A DNA stretch of 64,000 nucleotides from Actinocorallia populi (GTDB lineage Bacteria > Actinomycetota > Actinomycetes > Streptosporangiales > Streptosporangiaceae): the NCBI RefSeq assembly GCF_002995495.1, contig NZ_PVZV01000006.1:124001-188000 (forward strand), in the 5' to 3' direction. A model generated the notes under the pieces. The model searched no databases and was not told where the DNA came from. It was given only the letters and a program-made list of their open reading frames with translations. This document shows positions 38,036 to 47,737 of the stretch, in pieces (the stretch's first letter is position 1; the number at the start of each line of letters is the position of its first letter). Both the position numbers and the translations under genes were made by a program.

Positions 38036-39199
38036 ATGCGAACCCGTCCAGAGGCACCCGGCACCGAGCCGGAACAGGCAGGGACCCGGCGTCGCGGGCT
38101 CCGCGTCGCCGTGCGGCCGCTCATCACGGTCCTGGCCGCGGTCTGCGGTCTCGGCGGCGTGGTGCTGTGGCAGAACACCTACGACATGGACGAGCGGCGC
38201 GTCTCGATCCGCCACGGCGGCCACACGCTCAACGGCGTGCTGACCGTCCCCGAGGACGGCCGCGCACGCCACGGCCTGGTCGTGTACGTCCACGGTGACG
38301 GTCCCGTCGACGCCGCTCACGAAGGCGGCTACCGGCCCCTGTGGGAGGCGAACGCCAGGGCCGGGTACGCCTCCCTGTCCTGGGACAAGCCCGGCGTCGC
38401 GGGCGCTCCCGGCGACTGGCTCGACCAGTCCATGGACGACCGGGCGGACGAGGCGGCCGCCGCCATCGCCTGGGCCCGCGCCCGCCCCGACATCGACGGG
38501 GACCGGATCGGGCTCTGGGGCGCCAGCCAGGCGGGCTGGGTCCTGCCGAAGATCGCGGCAAGGACGCCCGTGCGCTTCGCCATCGCCGTCTCGCCCGCGG
38601 TCAACTGGCTCCGGCAGGGCCGCTACAACCTCCTCGCCGAGCTGCGCGCCGACGGCGCCTCCCCGGCACGCATCAAGACCGAGACCGCGAAGAGCGACGC
38701 CATCCGCCGGCTGCTGGAACGCCGCGCGACCTTCGAGGAGTACGTCGAGGCCATGGACGGCGACACGGACGGCATGACCTCCGCCCGCTGGAATTTCATC
38801 TCCAAGAACCACACCGCGGACGCGACGCGGGACCTTCGCGAGCTGCGCGGCGTACCGGTGCTGCTCGCCCTCGCGGGCCACGACATGAACGTGGACACGG
38901 CCGACACCGAGCGCGTCTACCGCGAGGTGCTGGCCGGGGAAGGCCCGTTGAAGGTCGAACGCTACCCGGACGCGGCGCACTCGCTGCTCAGGTGGTCCAT
39001 CGAGCGGTCGGACGTCAGGACCGTGCTCACCGCGCTCTTCTCGCCTCGCCGGCTCTTCGCTGACGGATTCCTGGAAGACCAGCGGCGGTTCCTGGAGGGC
39101 CTCGGCCAGGACGGCGCCGCCGCACCGTCACAGGGCGAGCGCGGCTCCGCTGGCGACGCCCAGGGCGAGGGAGAGTCCCGCGGCCGTGATGGCGAGTGA
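38036..39199 (+). CDS. Membrane-anchored alpha/beta hydrolase
   Basis: 387 residues. One N-terminal membrane segment (about 27-46, LITVLAAVCGLGGVVLW) anchors an extracytoplasmic alpha/beta-hydrolase. The oxyanion region is VYVHGDGPVD, the nucleophile elbow GASQAG (Ser near residue 165), and a late His sits in YPDAAHSLLRW. It resembles dienelactone-hydrolase-type acyl esterases. The last about 30 residues are Gly/Glu/Arg-rich and lie over the 3' end of nuoN on the other strand, so the natural stop may have been lost. Confidence 0.82.
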   Translation: MRTRPEAPGTEPEQAGTRRRGLRVAVRPLITVLAAVCGLGGVVLWQNTYDMDERRVSIRHGGHTLNGVLTVPEDGRARHGLVVYVHGDGPVDAAHEGGYRPLWEANARAGYASLSWDKPGVAGAPGDWLDQSMDDRADEAAAAIAWARARPDIDGDRIGLWGASQAGWVLPKIAARTPVRFAIAVSPAVNWLRQGRYNLLAELRADGASPARIKTETAKSDAIRRLLERRATFEEYVEAMDGDTDGMTSARWNFISKNHTADATRDLRELRGVPVLLALAGHDMNVDTADTERVYREVLAGEGPLKVERYPDAAHSLLRWSIERSDVRTVLTALFSPRRLFADGFLEDQRRFLEGLGQDGAAAPSQGERGSAGDAQGEGESRGRDGE

Positions 39200-40507
39200 T
39201 GTGGCTGTGCGGTGCGGAGTACGGGGGAAGGGGGACCGCGCGCGGTAGAGGGGGACGACCCAGCGCAGGTAGTAGAAGACGCTGGCGACGGTGTTGACGG
39301 CCATGACCACGGCGAGCCAGGCGTAGCCGCCGTCCAGGGCCGCTCCGAAGACCAGGAGCTTGCCGACGAACACGGCGGTGGGCGGGGTGCCGATCAGCCC
39401 GAGCAGGCAGACCACCAGGGAGAGGGCCAGCCAGGGGGCGCGGCGGGCCAGGCCGGTGTAGCCGGTCAGGTCGTCGGCGCCCCAGGCGATGACCACGGCG
39501 AAGGCGCCGAGGTTCGTGACGGCGTAGGCGGCCAGGTAGAACAGCAGCGCGGGTTCGGCCAGGCCGCTGTCGCCCGCCACCACGACCGGCACCAGCAGGT
39601 AGCCGGCCTGGCTGACCGTCGAGTACGCCAGCAGCCTCCGCACGTTGTCCTGCCCGAAGGCGGCGAGGTTGCCCAGCGTCATGGTGGCGGCGGCCAGCAC
39701 CGCGACCAGGACCCGCCAGTCGGCCGCCGTGCGGTCCAGCACCTCCGAGGCCAGCCGGAACACGGCGGCGAGCCCGCCGATCTTGGGAACGGTGGTGACG
39801 AACGCCGCGACGACGGGAGGCGCGCCCTCGGTCACGTCGGGCACCCAGTACTGGGCGGGCACCGCTCCGGCCTTGAACAGGAGCCCGGCGAGCAGCGCCA
39901 CGGTCCCGGCGGCCACCACGCCCCCCGGTGCGGCGGCCAGGCCGTCGGCCAGCACCGGGTAGGCGGTGCCGCGCCCGGCGCCGTACAGCATCGTCATCCC
40001 GGTCAGCATCGAGATGCCCAGCAGCGCACCCATCAGGAAGTACTTCAGCGCGGCCTCGGTGCCGCGGGCGTCCTTGGCGAACCCGGCGAGGGCGTACCCG
40101 GGGATGCTCGCCAGCAGGTAGGCGGCCATCAGGACCAGCAGGTCCGAGGCGGCGGCCATCATGACCGATCCCAGCGAGGCCAGCAGCACCAGCACGTACA
40201 GCTCGGTCTCCCGGGGGTGCCCGCGCAGCGGCCCGGCCAGGCCGAGCACCAGCAGCGCCGAGACCGCCACGACGGCGCGTACGGCGTGGGTGACCGGGTC
40301 GAGCGCGAAGGCCTCGAACGCCGTCATCTCCGGGCCGCGCGCCGCCAGCGCCGTGGCGGCCAGCGCTCCCGCCAGCCCGGCGGCGCAGACGGCGGCGACG
40401 ATCCGCTGCCGGTCGCGCGGCAGCCAGAGCCCCGCCACGAGCCCGCACACCGCGGCGCCCAGGAAGAGCAGCTCGGGCAGCAGGTCGGCCGGGTTCTCCC
40501 GCATCAT
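39128..40507 (-). CDS. nuoN: NADH-quinone oxidoreductase subunit N-like
   Basis: About 459 residues with some 14 membrane segments of the antiporter-like complex I family. The broken-helix lysine regions are present (FKAGAVPAQYWVPDVTEGAP, and TVPKIGG about 30 residues on). In the fifth segment, where the family has a conserved Glu in an ELLSLPLY-like stretch, this protein reads YLLASIPGY. The ATG at 40507 overlaps the nuoM stop. Last gene of the reduced nuo operon; its 3' end overlaps the convergent hydrolase by 72 bp. Confidence 0.92.
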   Translation of the reverse strand: MMRENPADLLPELLFLGAAVCGLVAGLWLPRDRQRIVAAVCAAGLAGALAATALAARGPEMTAFEAFALDPVTHAVRAVVAVSALLVLGLAGPLRGHPRETELYVLVLLASLGSVMMAAASDLLVLMAAYLLASIPGYALAGFAKDARGTEAALKYFLMGALLGISMLTGMTMLYGAGRGTAYPVLADGLAAAPGGVVAAGTVALLAGLLFKAGAVPAQYWVPDVTEGAPPVVAAFVTTVPKIGGLAAVFRLASEVLDRTAADWRVLVAVLAAATMTLGNLAAFGQDNVRRLLAYSTVSQAGYLLVPVVVAGDSGLAEPALLFYLAAYAVTNLGAFAVVIAWGADDLTGYTGLARRAPWLALSLVVCLLGLIGTPPTAVFVGKLLVFGAALDGGYAWLAVVMAVNTVASVFYYLRWVVPLYRARSPFPRTPHRTATSLAITAAGLSLALGVASGAALAL

Positions 40508-41988
40508 CGCGACACCAGCGACACCAGGACGGCGGAGGCGGGCTCGATCACGTCCAGCAGGAACCGGGGGGCGATGCCGATGAGCAGGGAGAGCGCCAGC
40601 AGCGGCACGACCGCGGTGGTCTCGGCGGCGCGCAGGTCGGTGACCCTGCCGGTGTCCGGGCCGGGACCGCCGAGCATCGTGCGGTGCAGCATCCGCAGGA
40701 ACAGGGCGGCGGTGAGCAGGATGCCCGGCAGCGCCAGCGCCCCGGCGACCGCGGTCGCCGTACCGCCGCCGCCGATCGTGCCGGTGAAGATCTGGAACTC
40801 GGCGATGAAGCCCGACAGGCCGGGCAGCCCGAAGGCGCCGAACGCGGCGATCGCGGTGAGGCCCGCGAACACCGGGGCGTTGCGGGCGATCCCTCCGTAG
40901 CGGCCCATGTCGTAGGCGCCGGCGCGGTCGTAGAACACCCCGGACAGCAGGAACAGCGCACCGGTGAGCAGCCCGTGGCTGACCATCTGGGTCACGCCGC
41001 CCGCCACCGCCAGCCGGTGGGCGGCGGCGTCGCCCGCCATCCCGGCGGCGCCCAGGCCGAGCACGATGTAGCCCATGTGGCTGACCGAGGTGTAGGCGAT
41101 CATCCGTTTGACGTTCTCCTGGGCGAGCGCCACCAGCGCCCCGTAGACGGCGCCGACCAGGCCGATCACGAGGATCACCCCCGCGTAGCGGCGCCAGGCC
41201 TCCGGCAGCATCGGCATCGCGATGCGCAGCATGCCGTAGACGCCCATCTTCAGCAGGACACCGGCCAGGATCGCCGAGCCCGCCGCGGGGGCGTCGGTGT
41301 GCGCGGGCGGCAGCCAGGTGTGCACCGGCACGGTGGGCGTCTTGACGGCCAGCCCGATCCCGACCGCCAGCAGCACCAGCGCTGCGGTGCCGGGCGAGTC
41401 CTTCAGCGGCGGCTCGGCCGTCAGGTCGACGATGTCGAAGGTGTGCGGCTCGGATCCCAGGTAGAGGCCGATGAAGCCCAGCAGCAGGGCCAGTGAGCCG
41501 AGGAAGGTGTAGAGGAAGAACTTCAGCGCCGACCGCAGCCGGTCGCCGTGCCCCCAGCCCGCGATGACGAAGTACATGCCGACGATCGACAGGTCGAAGA
41601 AGACGAAGAACAGCAGCAGGTCGAGCGCCGAGAACAGGCCCAGGCAGACGCTCTGCAGGAAGAGGAACAGCGCGGCGAACGCCCTTCCGCGGCCGAGGGA
41701 GTAGACGGCGCAGACCAGGAACAGCAGGGAGGTGAGCGCCAGCATCGGCAGCGACAGCCCGTCGACGCCCACATGGTAGGAGGCGTTGACCGAGGGGATC
41801 CAGCGCACTCGCGTCTCGTGGTCCATGCCGCCGCCGTAGGTGGCCCACAACACCAGGACCAGCGCCAGGTCGAGGGCGGTGACCGTGATCCAGAACGCGC
41901 CGGCGGCGCGCTCGCCCAGGCGGGGCAGGACGAGCAGGGCCAGCGTGCCGGCCAGCGGCAGGAAGATCACCAGGTTCAGCACGGTCAC
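40504..41988 (-). CDS. nuoM: NADH-quinone oxidoreductase subunit M-like
   Basis: 494 residues, 14 membrane segments. VKTPTVPVHTWLPPAHTDAP and ILAGVLLKMGVYGMLR carry the channel lysines, and the QENVKRMIAYTSVSHMGYI stretch is typical of NuoM. The fifth-segment glutamate of the family (FFEAMLIPMY-like) is aspartate here (FFDLSIVGMY). The GTG at 41988 overlaps the stop of nuoL (GTGA). It is predicted to be one of three proton- or cation-translocating subunits. Confidence 0.94.
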   Translation of the reverse strand: MTVLNLVIFLPLAGTLALLVLPRLGERAAGAFWITVTALDLALVLVLWATYGGGMDHETRVRWIPSVNASYHVGVDGLSLPMLALTSLLFLVCAVYSLGRGRAFAALFLFLQSVCLGLFSALDLLLFFVFFDLSIVGMYFVIAGWGHGDRLRSALKFFLYTFLGSLALLLGFIGLYLGSEPHTFDIVDLTAEPPLKDSPGTAALVLLAVGIGLAVKTPTVPVHTWLPPAHTDAPAAGSAILAGVLLKMGVYGMLRIAMPMLPEAWRRYAGVILVIGLVGAVYGALVALAQENVKRMIAYTSVSHMGYIVLGLGAAGMAGDAAAHRLAVAGGVTQMVSHGLLTGALFLLSGVFYDRAGAYDMGRYGGIARNAPVFAGLTAIAAFGAFGLPGLSGFIAEFQIFTGTIGGGGTATAVAGALALPGILLTAALFLRMLHRTMLGGPGPDTGRVTDLRAAETTAVVPLLALSLLIGIAPRFLLDVIEPASAVLVSLVSR

Positions 41989-43916
41989 CCCAGCAGGACG
42001 AGGACGGCGGCCAGCGCGAACAGCAGGACGACGGCCTGGACGTAGTAGATGTGCACCTGCCCGGTCTGCGGGCGGCGCGCCAGCCGGCCGAGCCGCCTGG
42101 CCGCCGAGCCGACGCCCCGCACCACGGAGTCGACCGGGCTCTCCGCCCGGCGCACGCTGAACGCGGCCGCCCGGATCCCCGAGGCGGCGATCGCGTGCAC
42201 CGCGCCGTCCACCCCGGCCTCGATCCGCCGGGCGACGGGGGAGGAGGCGCGCAGCGCGGCCGCGGCCGACGCCCGGACGGCGCCGTCGACGATCCGGTCG
42301 TCGAAACGGGCGAGCGCTCCGGCCAGCGCCAGGACGGGCCGCACGATCACGGCCGACACCGCCCGTTCCAGGTGCAGCCAGTTCACGGCGGTCGATGACG
42401 CCCACCGCGGACCCGTCATGACGACGGGCTGGAGGGACCCGCGAACGTAGCGGCGCACCGCCCAGGAGAACGTCATGAGCACCAGGACGGCCGAGGCGGC
42501 GAGCCCCGTCAGCGCCGGCGGGGGTTCGGGCGGGCCGCCGACCAGCCGGTGCCAGGGCGTCCAGAACACCACGACCAGCCCGAAACCCGCGGCGACCAGG
42601 GCGAGCGGGGGCAGCGGTGCCTTCTCCAGCGGTGAGATGGCACGCGTGGTGGCGGAGGTCTCGTCGTCGGCGGGCAGCCAGACGAGGAGCATCGCCTTGG
42701 CCGCGTACGCCGCCGACAGCACCGTGGCCGCCAGGCCGACCGCGTACAGCGGCCATGAGGTGCGGAGGGCGGCGTCCAGCACGGTGTCCTTGGTGATCCA
42801 CAGGGACAGCGGCGGAATTCCGGCCAGGGCCAGCGCCCCCACCGTGAACATGGCGCCGACGAAGGGATGCCGGCGGGCGACGCCGTGCAGCCTGCCCAGG
42901 TCCTTGGTGCCGAGCGCGGCCAGCCACGCCCCTGCCACCAGGAACAGCAGGCTCTTGACCGCCGCGTGCGCGACCAGGTGCGCCGTGCCTCCGGCCACCG
43001 CGCCGGTCCCCGCCGCCAGCACCATGAAACCGAGCTGCGCCGAGGTCGAGGCCGCCAGCAGCTGCTTGAGGTCGGACTGGGCCAGGGCCACGGTGCCCAG
43101 CAGCAGTGCCGTGGCCGCCCCCGCCCAGGCGGCCGCCGGCGCCGCCCATCCCGTGGCGGCGAGCAGAGGCTGCGTCCGCAGCAGGAGGTAGGCACCGGCG
43201 GCGACCATGGTCGCCGAGTGCAGCAGCGCGGAGACCGGGCTGGGGCCCGCCATCGCGCGCGACAACCAGAACGAGAACGGCAGCTGCGCCGACTTGCCGA
43301 GCGCAGCTGCGAGCAGGCCCGCGGCCACCACGTTCCGCCAGGGCCCGGCGGTCGCTTCCAGCCCGTCGAGAGACAGCGTCCCGGCTCCGGCGAAGGCGGC
43401 GCCCGCGGCCAGGTACAGGCCGAGATCCCCGGTCCGGGTGGTGAGGAACGCGGTGTCCGCCGAGCGCACCCTGCCGTCCTCGCGCCACCAGAAGCCGATC
43501 AGCGCGTACGACATCGCGCCCATGACCTCCCAGGCCATGAGGAGCAGCAGCAGGTCGGTCGCGGTGACGGTGACCAGCATCGCGCCGGAGAACACCAGCA
43601 TCAGACCGTGGAAGCGGGCGCTCGGCGGCATCTCCCCGGCGGCGAAGACCAGGACGGCCAGGGTCACCGCCGACACCGTCACCACCAGCACCGACGACAT
43701 CCCGTCCACGGCCATGCCGACCGGCAGCCCGGCGAGCATCGGAGCCTCGACCGAGGGCCGCAGCAGCGCCGCCGCGACCGCCAGCCCCGCCGTGACGGCG
43801 GCCACCGCCACCGCCACCGCGGGAGCCGGGCGGTCGGCCCGTCTCCCGCCCACCGCCAGCAGCCCGCCCGCCACCGTCGGCAGTGCGGGAAGGGCCCACC
43901 CCAGCGCGCCGCTCAC
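41985..43916 (-). CDS. nuoL: NADH-quinone oxidoreductase subunit L-like
   Basis: 643 residues, the largest antiporter-like subunit. The fifth-segment Glu is kept (MAWEVMGAMSYALIG), as are KSAQLPFSFWLSRAMAGPSPVSALLHSATMV and HAAVKSLLFLVAG. The C-terminus after about residue 520 is an amphipathic, Arg/Ala-rich stretch ending in one membrane helix, consistent with the NuoL lateral helix. The GTG at 43916 overlaps the nuoK stop and has AAGGAG just upstream. The frame extends further upstream through nuoK but is not coding there. Confidence 0.94.
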   Translation of the reverse strand: MSGALGWALPALPTVAGGLLAVGGRRADRPAPAVAVAVAAVTAGLAVAAALLRPSVEAPMLAGLPVGMAVDGMSSVLVVTVSAVTLAVLVFAAGEMPPSARFHGLMLVFSGAMLVTVTATDLLLLLMAWEVMGAMSYALIGFWWREDGRVRSADTAFLTTRTGDLGLYLAAGAAFAGAGTLSLDGLEATAGPWRNVVAAGLLAAALGKSAQLPFSFWLSRAMAGPSPVSALLHSATMVAAGAYLLLRTQPLLAATGWAAPAAAWAGAATALLLGTVALAQSDLKQLLAASTSAQLGFMVLAAGTGAVAGGTAHLVAHAAVKSLLFLVAGAWLAALGTKDLGRLHGVARRHPFVGAMFTVGALALAGIPPLSLWITKDTVLDAALRTSWPLYAVGLAATVLSAAYAAKAMLLVWLPADDETSATTRAISPLEKAPLPPLALVAAGFGLVVVFWTPWHRLVGGPPEPPPALTGLAASAVLVLMTFSWAVRRYVRGSLQPVVMTGPRWASSTAVNWLHLERAVSAVIVRPVLALAGALARFDDRIVDGAVRASAAAALRASSPVARRIEAGVDGAVHAIAASGIRAAAFSVRRAESPVDSVVRGVGSAARRLGRLARRPQTGQVHIYYVQAVVLLFALAAVLVLLG

Positions 43917-44218
43917 TCCTTCAGTTCTCCCGCGCCCTCGGTCATGTCGACCTCCTGGGCGCGGAACAAAGCGGTGACGACGGCGAAGCCCGTCGCCATC
44001 TCCAGCGCCATCACGGTGATCGCCACCAGGACGAGGACCTGCCCGTCGGCGGTTCCGGGCGTCACGTGGTACCAGAACGCCGCGCCCGCCAGCACGATCG
44101 CGTTGACCATGAGCTCCAGGCCCATCATCACCATCACGATCGACTGCTGGGACAGCGCCCCGTACAGGCCGGTCGCGAACAGCGCGGAGGCGGTCAGGAG
44201 GAACGCCTGCAGGGTCAC
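43913..44218 (-). CDS. nuoK: NADH-quinone oxidoreductase subunit K-like
   Basis: 101 residues with three membrane segments. Both membrane glutamates of the family are visible: MMGLELMVNA (about residue 34) and MALEMATGFA (about 70). It belongs to the E-channel that links the quinone region to the antiporter-like subunits. GTG start overlapping the nuoJ stop (GTGA). Confidence 0.93.
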   Translation of the reverse strand: MTLQAFLLTASALFATGLYGALSQQSIVMVMMGLELMVNAIVLAGAAFWYHVTPGTADGQVLVLVAITVMALEMATGFAVVTALFRAQEVDMTEGAGELKE

Positions 44219-44769
44219 GGCGCACCCCTGCCGGGATCGGCGGGGCGGCGCGCGTCCAGCCGGTCGCCGTGGCGGTCGTAGCGGCCCCGGCCGGTCGCGA
44301 GCACGACCGAGGTGATCATGGTGGCCAGGATGGCGACGCCGACCAGCATCATCACCGCCATCTTCGGCCCCATGACCGCCTCGCCGAGGGCGAAGGTCGT
44401 GTCGTGCGCGGGGACCCCCCTGCGCTCCGGCCAGGGCGTCAGGAGCGCCCCGGCGGCCAGCGCGGCGAAGACCGCGGCGGAGACGGCCGCCGAGCCGCGG
44501 CGGTTGTGCACCATCGTCATCGGCATCAGCCCCGCCGGGTTCATCATGTACATGACCATGAACACCGCCATGATCAGCATCTCCATGATCATCATCAGCA
44601 CCACCAGCAGGCCCAGGTAGGGCAGGCCGATCAGCAGCAGTTCCGCGCCGACGCACAGGAACGACAGCAGCAGCGCGAAGGTGGCGCGGGCCATGGAATC
44701 GACGGCGAACACCGCGATCCCGCCCGCCACGGCACCCGCCGCCAGCACCCAGAACACCACGACGCCCAC
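44215..44769 (-). CDS. nuoJ: NADH-quinone oxidoreductase subunit J-like
   Basis: 184 residues with about five membrane segments. It includes the pi-bulge-type helix region YLGLLVVLMMIMEMLIMAVFMVMYMMNP, here unusually Met-rich, and a Met-rich PMTMVHNRR loop. GTG start at 44769, ten bases after the nuoH stop. It packs next to NuoA and NuoK in the membrane arm. Confidence 0.9.
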   Translation of the reverse strand: MGVVVFWVLAAGAVAGGIAVFAVDSMARATFALLLSFLCVGAELLLIGLPYLGLLVVLMMIMEMLIMAVFMVMYMMNPAGLMPMTMVHNRRGSAAVSAAVFAALAAGALLTPWPERRGVPAHDTTFALGEAVMGPKMAVMMLVGVAILATMITSVVLATGRGRYDRHGDRLDARRPADPGRGAP

Positions 44770-44779
44770 CGGCGGCTCC

Positions 44780-45703
44780 TCACAGAACGGCGATCCCCAC
44801 CACGAGCATCTGCACCAGCACGGCGGGGATCAGCACCGTCCACGCCGCCTCGGCGAACCTGTCCATCCGCACCACCGGGAAACGGCGGCCCGCCCAGACC
44901 AGCCCGCCCAGCACCACGGCCGTCTTGACCAGCGACCACGCCCAGGCGGGCAGCAGCGGACCGGCACCGCCGCCCAGGAAGAGCGGCACCGCGAACGCCG
45001 CCGCCACCGCCAGCAGCGCGTACCGTCCGGCCAGGAAGAACAGCCGGTCCGGCCCCGACAGCTCCACCGCCGCGCCGCCCGCGGCGTCGTCCGCGACGGG
45101 ATGGGCCAGCGGCCCCCAGAACGCCATGGCCAGCACCGACAGCAGGTAGACGGCGAAGGCCACCGGCATCCACACCACGAACCACAACCCCTGCTGCGCC
45201 TGCACGATCTCGCCGACCCGCAACGACTGCGCGCCCAGCCCCACGGTGGTGAGCGCGAACATGTGCGGCAGTTCGTACGCCAGCCCCTGCGCCAGGAACC
45301 GGTACCCGCCGACCAGGCCGAACGCCGAGTTCGAACCCCAGCCGACCAGCCACACCGCCGCCCAGACGGCCACCTCCACGGCGTTGAACCACACCACGCC
45401 GACCGCCGGATCCATCACCATCGCGTTCCCGAGCGGCACCACCATGGCGGCCAGCAGCGCGACGGCCGGAAGCAGCACCACACCTGCTCTCAGCAGCAGC
45501 CGGTCGGCGGCCGCCACGGTGCGCGGGGGACGCAGCAGCAGCCGTGCCGCCTCCCGCAGCGGATCGGCGGCGGCCCGCAGCGCACGGCCGCGACCGGCGT
45601 CCCGCGCGGCCAGAACGGAATCCCACCCGGCCGCCCCCAGCGCCAGCCCGGCCACCACCGGCGGCAGCACGGCGACCGCCCACACCGCCCCCGGCTCACC
45701 CAT
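44780..45703 (-). CDS. nuoH: NADH-quinone oxidoreductase subunit H-like
   Basis: 307 residues with eight membrane segments, the subunit that in complex I forms the floor of the quinone cavity. The overall NuoH order is kept (WFNAVEVAVWAAVWLVGWGSNSAFGLVGGYRFLAQGLAYELP; LFFLAGRYALLAV). The acidic loop normally reading like PEAESELVAGYNVEYSG is reduced to PVADDAAGGAAVELSG, with fewer carboxylates and no tyrosines. It may no longer handle quinone in the standard way. ATG at 45703 overlaps the upstream gene. Confidence 0.9.
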   Translation of the reverse strand: MGEPGAVWAVAVLPPVVAGLALGAAGWDSVLAARDAGRGRALRAAADPLREAARLLLRPPRTVAAADRLLLRAGVVLLPAVALLAAMVVPLGNAMVMDPAVGVVWFNAVEVAVWAAVWLVGWGSNSAFGLVGGYRFLAQGLAYELPHMFALTTVGLGAQSLRVGEIVQAQQGLWFVVWMPVAFAVYLLSVLAMAFWGPLAHPVADDAAGGAAVELSGPDRLFFLAGRYALLAVAAAFAVPLFLGGGAGPLLPAWAWSLVKTAVVLGGLVWAGRRFPVVRMDRFAEAAWTVLIPAVLVQMLVVGIAVL

Positions 45704-46775
45704 GGGTCGCCGACGCCGCGGGTCGGTCGAGATCAGGGTCCAGACTCGCCACGATCAGCCGGGCCGCACCCAGATCGGCGCCCGCCAGCAGGTCCGGCAG
45801 CAGCGACACCGGCGCCGTGTCCGGCGCATCATGTGCCTCGTTGCCCGGGTCCAGGGGAGTGGGATCGTCGAGCAGCCCCATGGCCGTTCCGGCCTCCGCG
45901 AGCAGCGCGTGCAACCGGTCCGCGGCGTCTCCTGCGAGCCGGGCGGGCGGCGCGGTTACCGGCCCCAGGTCGCGCAGCATCCAGCGCAGCGTCCGGGAAC
46001 GTCCGACGGAGTCCGACAGCCGTTCGAATCGTGCGGTGAGCCGCTCCGACGGGTGGTCGGCCAGCAGGTCGTCCCGCAGCCACCGGGCCTGGGCGGACAT
46101 CCGATCCCAGCCCGCCACGGCCAGGAGCCGTCCCAAGGTGTCCAGGGAGCGTGCGGCTCCGCGCCGCTCCGCGGTACCGCGTGCCACCGGGTCTCCGGTC
46201 CGGGCCGCCGTCCAGGGCTCCGTCCAGAACGACCCGCGGCCCGTCCCCTCAGCGGTCGCCACCTCGGCCCGCTGCACGACGTCCCCCTGCATCACCGCCC
46301 GGACGACCAGGCCCGCCGGCCAGTCCGCCAGCACCGGGCCGAGCTGCACGTGGAGCACGTCCAGCTTGAGCCCGTCACGGTCGGCCTCCCGGTCCGCCAT
46401 CCCCGGCTCGTCGCCGGATTCGTGTCCTTCCGCCGCGTGATCCCCGGAGTCCCGGCGGTCAGGGGCCGCCAGCTCGTGCTCCGCCCGGTCCAGGAGCGTG
46501 ATGAGATGCTCTCGCCCGGGAACGGAAGCCCGGACCAGGGCGCGGGGCCGGGGAATCTGGCGCCACACCCGTTCGACGGCCTGTTCCAGGTCCGGTCCGG
46601 GCTCCCCGCAGACCACCAGGACCGAGCACGCCGCCGGAGACGCGACGCTTCGCCAGCCCCGCTCGCGCGCCTCGGCCTCGACCCCGAGCCGGGCGGCCGT
46701 CCCCCCTGCCGCCGTGACGACGAAGAAGGGAGGCCGCCCGGCGGCGAAGCACGACAACCGGGAGATCAGGCCCAC
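45696..46775 (-). CDS. Degenerate NuoB/NuoD-like fusion subunit
   Basis: 359 residues. Residues about 45-95 (SVLVVCGEPGPDLEQAVERVWRQIPRPRALVRASV, in two pieces around a short gap) resemble the NuoB segment before its last cysteines. Residues about 155-260 resemble NuoD: HVQLGPVLADWPAGLVVRAVM aligns with the GPQHPAAHGVLRL region, followed by a helical part like AVEKLLGIEVPERAQYIR. The NuoB Cys-Cys and Cys ligands and both quinone-site histidines of NuoD are absent. It replaces NuoB, C, D and I between nuoA and nuoH, overlapping both. A structural cap for the membrane arm is my inference; in Streptomyces nuo2 operons a gene at this place has been called nuoB2, as I recall. Confidence 0.7.
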   Translation of the reverse strand: MGLISRLSCFAAGRPPFFVVTAAGGTAARLGVEAEARERGWRSVASPAACSVLVVCGEPGPDLEQAVERVWRQIPRPRALVRASVPGREHLITLLDRAEHELAAPDRRDSGDHAAEGHESGDEPGMADREADRDGLKLDVLHVQLGPVLADWPAGLVVRAVMQGDVVQRAEVATAEGTGRGSFWTEPWTAARTGDPVARGTAERRGAARSLDTLGRLLAVAGWDRMSAQARWLRDDLLADHPSERLTARFERLSDSVGRSRTLRWMLRDLGPVTAPPARLAGDAADRLHALLAEAGTAMGLLDDPTPLDPGNEAHDAPDTAPVSLLPDLLAGADLGAARLIVASLDPDLDRPAASATHG

Positions 46776-47113
46776 CGCAGCGCGCCTTCCCGCCAGGCGT
46801 ACAGCACCCCGACCAGGATCAGCGCCAGGAAGACGAACATCTCCACCACCGCTGTGGCGCCGACGGCCGAGACCACCACCGCCCACGGGTACATGAAGAC
46901 CATCTCCATGTCGAAGGCCAGGAAGACCATCGTCAGCGCGTACCAGCGCACGTGGTAGCGGGACACGGCATGCTCCTGAGGAGCCCCTCCCGACAGGAAC
47001 GGTTCGGAGCGAACGGCCTCCGGCAGCCCCACCGCGGACGAGAAGGCGTAACCGGCCGTCACGAGGACGCCGAGCAGCCCCAGATACGCAGCGGCCACAA
47101 CGTACGGCTGCAT
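46766..47113 (-). CDS. nuoA: NADH-quinone oxidoreductase subunit A-like
   Basis: 115 residues with three membrane segments. The FDMEMVFMYPWAVV segment keeps the Asp and Glu of NuoA helix 2. The cytoplasmic loop that normally carries YECGFEP reads EPFLSGGAPQEHAVSRYHVRWY, so the conserved Cys and its neighbours are lost. First gene of the operon; ATG at 47113. The promoter should lie in the 165 bp before it, where I see no clear element. Confidence 0.88.
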   Translation of the reverse strand: MQPYVVAAAYLGLLGVLVTAGYAFSSAVGLPEAVRSEPFLSGGAPQEHAVSRYHVRWYALTMVFLAFDMEMVFMYPWAVVVSAVGATAVVEMFVFLALILVGVLYAWREGALRWA

Positions 47114-47278: not shown

Positions 47279-47737
47279 TTGTCAGGTGGACAGAAGACGC
47301 AAAGCCGTAGAGGGCACGGAGCGTTCTCCCGGTGGATGCAGCACCGCGCGAACGCTCGCATGATCCGTAAGGTCCGCGGCGGGCGCGGGGCGTTCATGGG
47401 GATGGAGATCCTGATCCTCCACACGGCGGGCCGCCGGAGCGGCGTGCTGCGGGAGACGCCCGTGGCGTGGTTCGCCGACGGCGAGGGCGCCTGGCTGGTC
47501 GTCGCGTCGGGAGGCAAGGGCGGTCACCCGGACTGGCACCTGAACCTGATGGGGCGCCCCGACCGGGCGGCGGTCGAGCTGCCCGGCCGTGACGCCGTGC
47601 CGGTGGAGCCGCGTGTGCTCGAAGGCGCCGAGCGCGAGCGGGCGTGGAAGCGCATCGCCGCCGCTCAGCCCCGTATGGAGAAATACCAGCACAAGTCCGG
47701 CCAGGAGTACCCGGTGGTCAGGCTCATCTCGCGGTGA
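47279..47737 (+). CDS. Deazaflavin (F420)-dependent nitroreductase-family protein
   Basis: 152 residues of the Ddn/FDOR split-barrel family: MEILILHTAGRRSGVLRETPVAWF near residue 42, followed by WLVVASGGKGGHPDWHLNLMGRP, the core that binds F420 or related cofactors. These enzymes reduce varied substrates with F420H2, which mycobacteria and many actinomycetes make. The start is TTG at 47279, fixed by a strong GGAGGAGA 5-6 nt upstream. Confidence 0.9.
   Translation: MSGGQKTQSRRGHGAFSRWMQHRANARMIRKVRGGRGAFMGMEILILHTAGRRSGVLRETPVAWFADGEGAWLVVASGGKGGHPDWHLNLMGRPDRAAVELPGRDAVPVEPRVLEGAERERAWKRIAAAQPRMEKYQHKSGQEYPVVRLISR

Follow-up and report, generated by a model that had tools for sequence, protein, structure and literature searches.

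A reduced complex I operon of Actinocorallia populi as a possible proton-coupled Cu(I) transporter

What work could the membrane arm of complex I do if no electrons reached it? The question is raised by an eight-gene operon on the minus strand (39128-47113) of a 64,000-nucleotide stretch of the Actinocorallia populi genome (contig NZ_PVZV01000006.1, positions 124,001 to 188,000; hereafter the window, with positions counted from its first base). The original prediction, made from the letters of the window, saw here an ion-translocating membrane arm without visible electron input and listed a cation/proton transporter among its possible roles; the comparisons reported here support the description and keep that role as an option. 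They tilt the balance slightly towards the view that the operon family encodes a non-redox derivative of complex I that would couple protons to the transport of Cu(I), probably outward. A fuller formulation, in which a non-respiratory branch of complex I acts as a proton-driven Cu(I)/Ag(I) exporter, its electron module turned into a metal-collecting cap and its E-channel into a methionine-lined metal path, and in which this system resides on both chromosomes and plasmids in Actinomycetota and Pseudomonadota, with copper repressors controlling it in some hosts, is close to an even call, a shade on the doubtful side. We infer copper binding, transport, direction and proton coupling alike from sequence comparison.

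The genes overlap or are closely spaced, as first described, and seven of the eight fall into complex I Pfam families. All lie on the minus strand, in the order nuoA (46766-47113; 115 amino acids; PF00507, E = 3.7e-26), a NuoB/NuoD-derived fusion (45696-46775; 359 amino acids, with a GTG start at 46775 and a 10-base overlap with nuoA), nuoH (44780-45703; 307 amino acids; PF00146, E = 2.5e-43), nuoJ (44215-44769; 184 amino acids; PF00499, E = 2.9e-10), nuoK (43913-44218; 101 amino acids; PF00420, E = 2e-14), nuoL (41985-43916; 643 amino acids; PF00361, E = 9.5e-55), nuoM (40504-41988; refined GTG start at 41988; PF00361, E = 2.5e-62) and nuoN (39128-40507; 459 amino acids; refined ATG start at 40507; PF00361, E = 3.8e-51). 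The best NCBIfam models for the last three are named NuoL, NuoM and NuoN, with the L and N matches under the curated cut-offs. Gene calls and Pfam agree with the earlier statement that nuoC, nuoE, nuoF, nuoG and nuoI are missing from the eight genes, and Rfam gave no match anywhere in the window. Related loci were taken as the best 80 of 422 confirmed stretches from a scan of genome contigs, and the full set came to 98 loci with the window. The order A-H-J-K-L-M-N was fully called in 91 of these 98, the other seven being contig ends or missed gene calls, and a fusion frame between nuoA and nuoH was recovered in 77 of the 80. Because the order is kept in 91 of 98 loci, the operon is not a chance assembly.

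Neither Pfam nor NCBIfam gave the second gene a match of its own, and its description as a degenerate NuoB/NuoD fusion was confirmed from several sides. A profile of 66 homologs (65 of the 77 recovered fusions plus the window) matches NuoB of a solved complex I in its B half (2fug_6, E = 2.1e-5, profile positions 45-83), and hhalign pairs this half with NuoB at a probability of 90. In the D half, the pairing of NuoD with the clade of the window by hhalign fell short of significance (probability 3, E = 0.013), but PF00346 matches were found in distant fusions from Halomonas (2.7e-7), Rubrobacter (4.1e-17) and Paracoccus (6.3e-10). An AlphaFold model of the window fusion reached a predicted local distance difference test score of 91.3 and a predicted template modelling score of 0.90, with low confidence in the stretch joining the two halves; all 50 Foldseek matches shown of 536 are complex I and its relatives (best E = 3.5e-5, template modelling score about 0.4), and the chains matched, identified from the entry titles, correspond in letter and length to the NuoD/49-kDa subunit. 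The redox chemistry of both parents appears to be gone. The ligands of iron-sulfur cluster N2 in NuoB are a tandem CC and two further cysteines; the window fusion has no CC, a CC pair occurs in 2 of 66 fusions, and the one column with more than 30% cysteine is not an N2 position. The quinone-site histidine motif of NuoD (GPxHP or HPxxHG) was found in only 3 of 66. The quinone-loop region of NuoH is partly altered: with residues mapped on E. coli K-12 (L166, L167), the E218 position is deleted in 96/98 loci and E216 is not acidic in most, the latter being valine also in the second complex I set of the same genome. The operon thus has homologs of NuoA, H, J, K, L, M and N and remnants of NuoB and NuoD in common with respiratory complex I and differs from it in having no NADH module, NuoC, NuoI, iron-sulfur ligands or quinone-site histidine motif, and in gained methionines in NuoA, NuoJ and NuoK. 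As the NADH module, the iron-sulfur ligands and the histidine motif are missing, its product very probably does not act as an NADH or quinone oxidoreductase.

The proton path of the arm, on the other hand, is largely kept. The claim that NuoK, NuoL and most of NuoM and NuoN retain their charged residues stood for NuoK (E36 in 97/97; E72 as Glu in 95 and Asp in 2) and for NuoL, in which all seven proton-path residues are intact in the window and kept in 97-98 of 98 loci; it failed for the glutamate of transmembrane helix 5, which is Asp in NuoM (E144, 92/95) and Leu in NuoN (E133, 92/94). The other mapped residues of these two subunits are retained (NuoM K234, K265 and E407 in 95/95; NuoN K217, K247 and K395 in 92-93 of 94), as are E81 (95/95) and D79 (91 Asp, 4 Glu) of NuoA.

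Methionine favours Cu(I) or Ag(I) as a ligand, and conserved methionines have been gained in one part of the arm. Columns conserved at 90% or more, with Met absent from E. coli and from the two other complex I sets of the genome, number 13 in NuoJ, 4 in NuoK, 3 in NuoA, 2 in NuoH, 1 in NuoM and none in NuoL or NuoN. Pooled, NuoA, NuoJ and NuoK show 20 gains among 136 columns and the other four subunits 3 among 550 (Fisher P = 2.8e-12), and the excess persists without NuoJ (7 of 80 columns, P = 4e-5). Gain is judged here against these three canonical sets, with a few more viewed in alignments to solved structures; in HMMER alignments, the solved NuoJ and NuoK of T. thermophilus, cyanobacteria and E. 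coli carry other residues at these places. The window copy shares the gained methionines of the family, among them M69, M71 and M74 in NuoA and M29, M31, M70 and M74 in NuoK. The richest stretch comprises transmembrane helix 3 of NuoJ and the loop after it (M59-H88; 44506-44595, minus strand): it holds 9-12 methionines in 30/30 loci, window counted, and M60, M64, M67, M71 and M75 occupy a sector of no more than 80 degrees on a helical wheel, beside a new glutamate, E63. The position of Y59 is Met in 98/98 loci, and the new glutamate follows three residues further on, also in 98/98. In the excerpt of PMC7419157 that deals with the Mrp antiporter, the essential Na+-path glutamate E706 stands at the place of NuoJ Y59, and the route by which Na+ leaves coincides with the E-channel. 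Since Y59 has become Met, E63 is nearby and E706 occupies the Y59 place, the family appears to have an acidic site close to the Mrp one and framed by methionines. The Met/His loop after helix 3, and the histidine-rich NuoJ tails of Roseivivax, Halomonas and Arthrobacter, presumably face the cytoplasm, as the topology of complex I has it.

A second metal-binding feature is found in the linker that joins the two halves of the fusion (about residues 104-131 in the window; 46383-46466, minus strand). Across the 70 fusions with a recognisable boundary motif, the median share of histidine plus methionine is 15% in the linker versus 2.7% outside it, and 52 of the 70 linkers hold at least five such residues. 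In Rubrobacter and Paracoccus the linker contains a heavy-metal-binding domain (HMBD; PF19335, E = 8.3e-23 and 2.3e-41), and the Nitratireductor fusion is likewise annotated with such a domain. These features might be taken for a copper-based redox pump, in which copper on the fusion replaces the iron-sulfur chain, relays electrons from Cu(I) onward to an acceptor and lets the arm pump protons; the fusion does descend from a redox module, and multicopper oxidases lie near some copies. We regard this as very unlikely, for the quinone-site histidine motif is lost and the NuoH loop altered, and the linker is variable and little developed or nearly absent in several Actinomadura, unlike a catalytic centre. 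As separate observations on individual copies, an IS3 element interrupts the fusion gene of a Pseudarthrobacter plasmid (L171:8533-10353), and one nuoM (L044:3910-5426) is read in two overlapping frames, for which a frameshift or a sequencing error is possible.

Copper genes surround many members of the family. Label-free clustering of flank proteins at 96 loci ranked P-type ATPases (28 loci), DUF305 proteins (22), ABC (20) and MFS (16) proteins first, followed by BlaI/CopY regulators (13), a secreted His-rich protein (12), multicopper oxidases (11), BNR-repeat proteins (11) and CsoR (9); cluster names were given by eye with ten proteins checked, and the ranks stand without a genome-wide baseline. 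The secreted His-rich protein has no Pfam match, and a CsoR-type site precedes it in 4 of its 12 loci. At least one of four labelled copper gene types was present in the called flanks of 43/97 loci, or 36 of the 80 on genome contigs. Within 10 kb of 46 operons in 44 genomes, DUF305 genes were found at 11 (0.53 expected), multicopper oxidases at 10 (0.51 expected) and either at 18, a count that leaves out ten DUF305 rows (second pieces of counted genes, short fragments and three weak ones) and second-domain or fragment rows of multicopper oxidases. Outside one host family, f45, the association is seen within 20 kb, at 6/27 operons for DUF305 (0.38 expected, P = 1e-6) and 3/27 for multicopper oxidases (0.49 expected, P = 0.01); either occurs at 7/27 versus 0/23 canonical nuoF loci (Fisher P = 0.011). 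The nuoF control, drawn from the same set of genomes, comprises 23 of 50 NuoF-marker rows (E < 1e-25); among the rows dropped is G191:C1:142188 (E = 1.6e-18), with a multicopper-oxidase match about 2.5 kb away. NuoJ (E <= 1e-3) was also found in 25 plasmid records, some from Pseudomonadota, and 12 of these were picked to span genera rather than at random. Copper or heavy-metal genes (CueR, CsoR-type regulators, P-type ATPases, copper oxidases) occur in 10 of the 12 neighbourhoods; those of the M. avium and Paracoccus plasmids are heavy-metal P-type ATPase-type genes with the metal unstated, and the Rhodococcus and Pseudarthrobacter neighbourhoods hold no copper or heavy-metal genes. On a Halomonas plasmid, egtB and egtD (ergothioneine) lie directly 3' of the operon (L083:17798-20070).

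Candidate operators point the same way. The motif TACCC-N5-GGGTA fits the CsoR consensus of Streptomyces, given as ATATACCCCTNAGGGGTATAT in the part of PMC3902906 on S. lividans. The 1.97 Mb of locus sequence contains 61 perfect copies, where base composition would predict 1.8, some loci being near copies of each other; no copy reaches deeper than 30 bases into a called gene, and many precede P-type ATPase, CsoR or CopY-type genes. Eleven perfect sites, in ten loci, stand 350 bp or less upstream of the operon's nuoA. A site occurs within 300 bp of the gene start for 9/94 nuoA, 14/40 P-type ATPase and 4/10 CsoR genes, compared with 0/625 other operon genes and 22/700 other flank genes, unlabelled copper genes included. 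The 8-mers enriched ahead of nuoA, in a test whose shuffles preserve only base composition, were largely GC-rich. The same metal-binding and regulatory evidence (HMBD, His/Met linkers, CsoR-type sites), together with an intact NuoL proton path and retained E-channel acids, would also suit a copper-gated valve for protons or cations, in which metal on the fusion opens or closes proton flow and copper itself is not moved. Gained methionines inside the membrane subunits J, K and A, however, fit a conduit better than a sensor, and the valve seems an improbable arrangement. Export is preferred to import for the proposed transporter because of the detoxification genes nearby and the likely cytoplasmic side of its metal-binding parts.

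The genome itself (8.25 Mb, 25 contigs) encodes a complete nuoA-N operon elsewhere (L035), the gene set whose search the original prediction had proposed, so that the finding named there as its refutation (nuoC-G and nuoI elsewhere, with no second full operon) does not apply; it also has a second set, nuoABCHIJKLMN (L036), which makes the window operon its third complex I-like set; gene letters outside the window were given by gene order and by eye. The nuoABCHIJKLMN operon (L036:4958-13943) adjoins genes resembling, by eye, 2-oxoacid:ferredoxin oxidoreductase, and a stand-alone nuoD (L037:9384-10583) lies about 100 kb away on the same contig; together these may form a ferredoxin-type complex I. 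Beside nuoA of the window operon and divergent from it is an F420H2-dependent quinone reductase-like gene (F420H2_quin_red; 47279-47734, plus strand); as an electron partner it was set aside, no such gene being among the largest flank clusters of relatives.

With a full operon and a second set in the same cell, the window genes could be what is left of a complex I, incomplete or in decay, that relies on subunits of another one. This is very improbable for several reasons. In trees of NuoM and NuoH, built with three outgroup sequences and rooted on E. coli, all members form one clade (support 0.94 and 0.97) apart from E. coli and the genome's two other sets, with Rubrobacter and Paracoccus as first branches. 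A NuoF-type gene (PF10589) was not found in 19 of 44 operon-bearing genomes, in a search that did not extend to NuoF-free complex I types; of the 19, 14 are 91-100% complete and 18 belong to f45, all 18 of whose genomes in the set hold the operon and no NuoF marker. The idea of an accessory to a full complex I was therefore rejected as a general role, and decay was rejected on the gene order kept in 91/98 loci and the new residues kept in 98/98. Of 100 genomes, 11 have the fusion, and of 396 genomes of the phylum, 35 have NuoJ (E <= 1e-10), the organism's own genome counted in both. One genome, G012, carries two different operon copies (L040, L041).

The operon type is in print already. Excerpts of PMC3314556, PMC4018334, PMC6002675, PMC6676996 and PMC8622039 describe a partial NDH-1 operon of the same gene order in Salinispora, Streptomyces and Kocuria, count it among marine-adaptation genes and propose proton or sodium pumping and osmoadaptation as its roles; the order in PMC6676996 is nuoA, a 'hypothetical protein', then nuoH, J, K, L, M and N, and PMC8622039 describes a marine Streptomyces with three sets, full, nuoABCHIJKLMN and nuoAHJKLMN. 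The window operon is of the last type, A, an unidentified protein, H, J, K, L, M and N; in those excerpts the eighth gene has no identification and no link to copper is made. The earlier comparison with Streptomyces 'nuo2' mixed two operons: nuoABCHIJKLMN corresponds to L036, and the window to the published nuoAHJKLMN. Identity with the nuo2 type was rejected, that type being present separately at L036; it is also a NuoEFG-free actinomycete nuo operon and differs in keeping NuoB with its Cys ligands, NuoC and NuoI; it has the look of a redox type. Searches of the open-licence literature aimed at a copper link turned up no account of such a role for the operon, and the excerpts of PMC12668529 and PMC7419157 do not describe the operon. 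New here are the view of the family as a copper system and the identification of the fusion, left a 'hypothetical protein' in print, as NuoB/NuoD-derived.

What the published presence patterns and phylogenies (PMC3314556, PMC6676996, PMC6002675, PMC4018334, PMC8622039, each in excerpt) favour is adaptation to salt or osmotic conditions by a Na+(K+)/H+ antiporter, with the complex I arm employed in the manner of Mrp; Salinispora and marine Streptomyces are the hosts for which this has been suggested. The antiporter subunits are indeed largely intact, and the operon resembles Mrp antiporters in having no redox input and in its antiporter-like subunits, and perhaps in a Glu on the NuoJ-type helix three residues past the E706 position, which is itself Met; it differs in having NuoA, NuoH, the B/D fusion and three large antiporter-like subunits, in being Met-rich and in that MrpE, MrpF and MrpG are not among the eight genes. 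A methionine lining and His/Met-rich or HMBD linkers suit soft metals, not Na+, copper genes and CsoR-type sites lie near many copies, and the genome already has an Mrp-like operon (L038, judged by eye). Many hosts, moreover, belong to what we take to be soil genera. Antiport of this kind is accordingly judged unlikely, if a shade less so than the valve.

Several observations weigh against the copper transporter. The published reading of the operon is salt or marine adaptation. The leucine at NuoN E133 replaces the counterpart of the coupling residue E137 of MrpD, which also speaks against a simple Mrp analogy, and the acids of the NuoH loop are partly kept (E228 in 95/98, E220 as Asp in 93/98). 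None of the four labelled copper gene types was present in the called flanks of 54/97 loci. The proximity within 10 kb comes mainly from the 19 operons of f45 (9 of 11 DUF305 and 8 of 10 multicopper-oxidase cases); outside f45 either gene lies within 10 kb at 3/27 operons versus 0/23 control loci (P = 0.24), and the nuoF control holds no f45 genomes. At 5 of the 10 loci with a site near nuoA, the region is shared with a divergent P-type ATPase or CsoR gene. The window copy is itself a plain member: its linker is short, with two histidines, there is no copper gene among the seven flanking genes scanned, no DUF305 or multicopper-oxidase match on its contig, and no CsoR-like site in the window even with one mismatch. 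With linker, neighbours and operator of its own lacking, its proposed function rests on homology and shared membrane residues. The metal features, copper neighbours and CsoR-type sites were missed at first because they are seen only in relatives.

A transport cycle consistent with these features can be outlined for the proposed copper transporter. Copper would relieve a CsoR-type repressor, as suggested by the operator-like sites of ten loci, none of them at the window copy. The His/Met-rich or HMBD linker seen in relatives would then collect cytosolic Cu(I), the fusion presumably capping the membrane arm at the former seat of the electron module. From there, Cu(I) might enter a Met/Glu-lined path formed by the observed residues of NuoJ helix 3, NuoK and NuoA, the region through which Mrp antiporters pass Na+. 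Protons moving through the antiporter-like NuoL, NuoM and NuoN, with their retained residues, would drive the cycle, and the cargo would be a soft monovalent metal, most likely Cu(I), probably moved outward. HMBD is also present in CusB of CusCBA. The proposed system shares HMBD and CsoR-type operators with CopA (a P1B-ATPase) and CusCBA, and genes similar to theirs stand beside many copies; it would nevertheless be a wholly different machine, neither an ATPase nor an RND pump.

If the copper transporter is real, the architecture of complex I would gain a branch that moves a transition metal, which is not described in the literature found, and an operon that has counted as a marker of marine adaptation since 2012, with no mechanism given, would acquire one. 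Ions alone would drive the E-channel and antiporter subunits that it shares with complex I, which would make the family a redox-free setting in which to test coupling within that enzyme. For its hosts, it would mean an added kind of copper resistance, one that also travels on plasmids.

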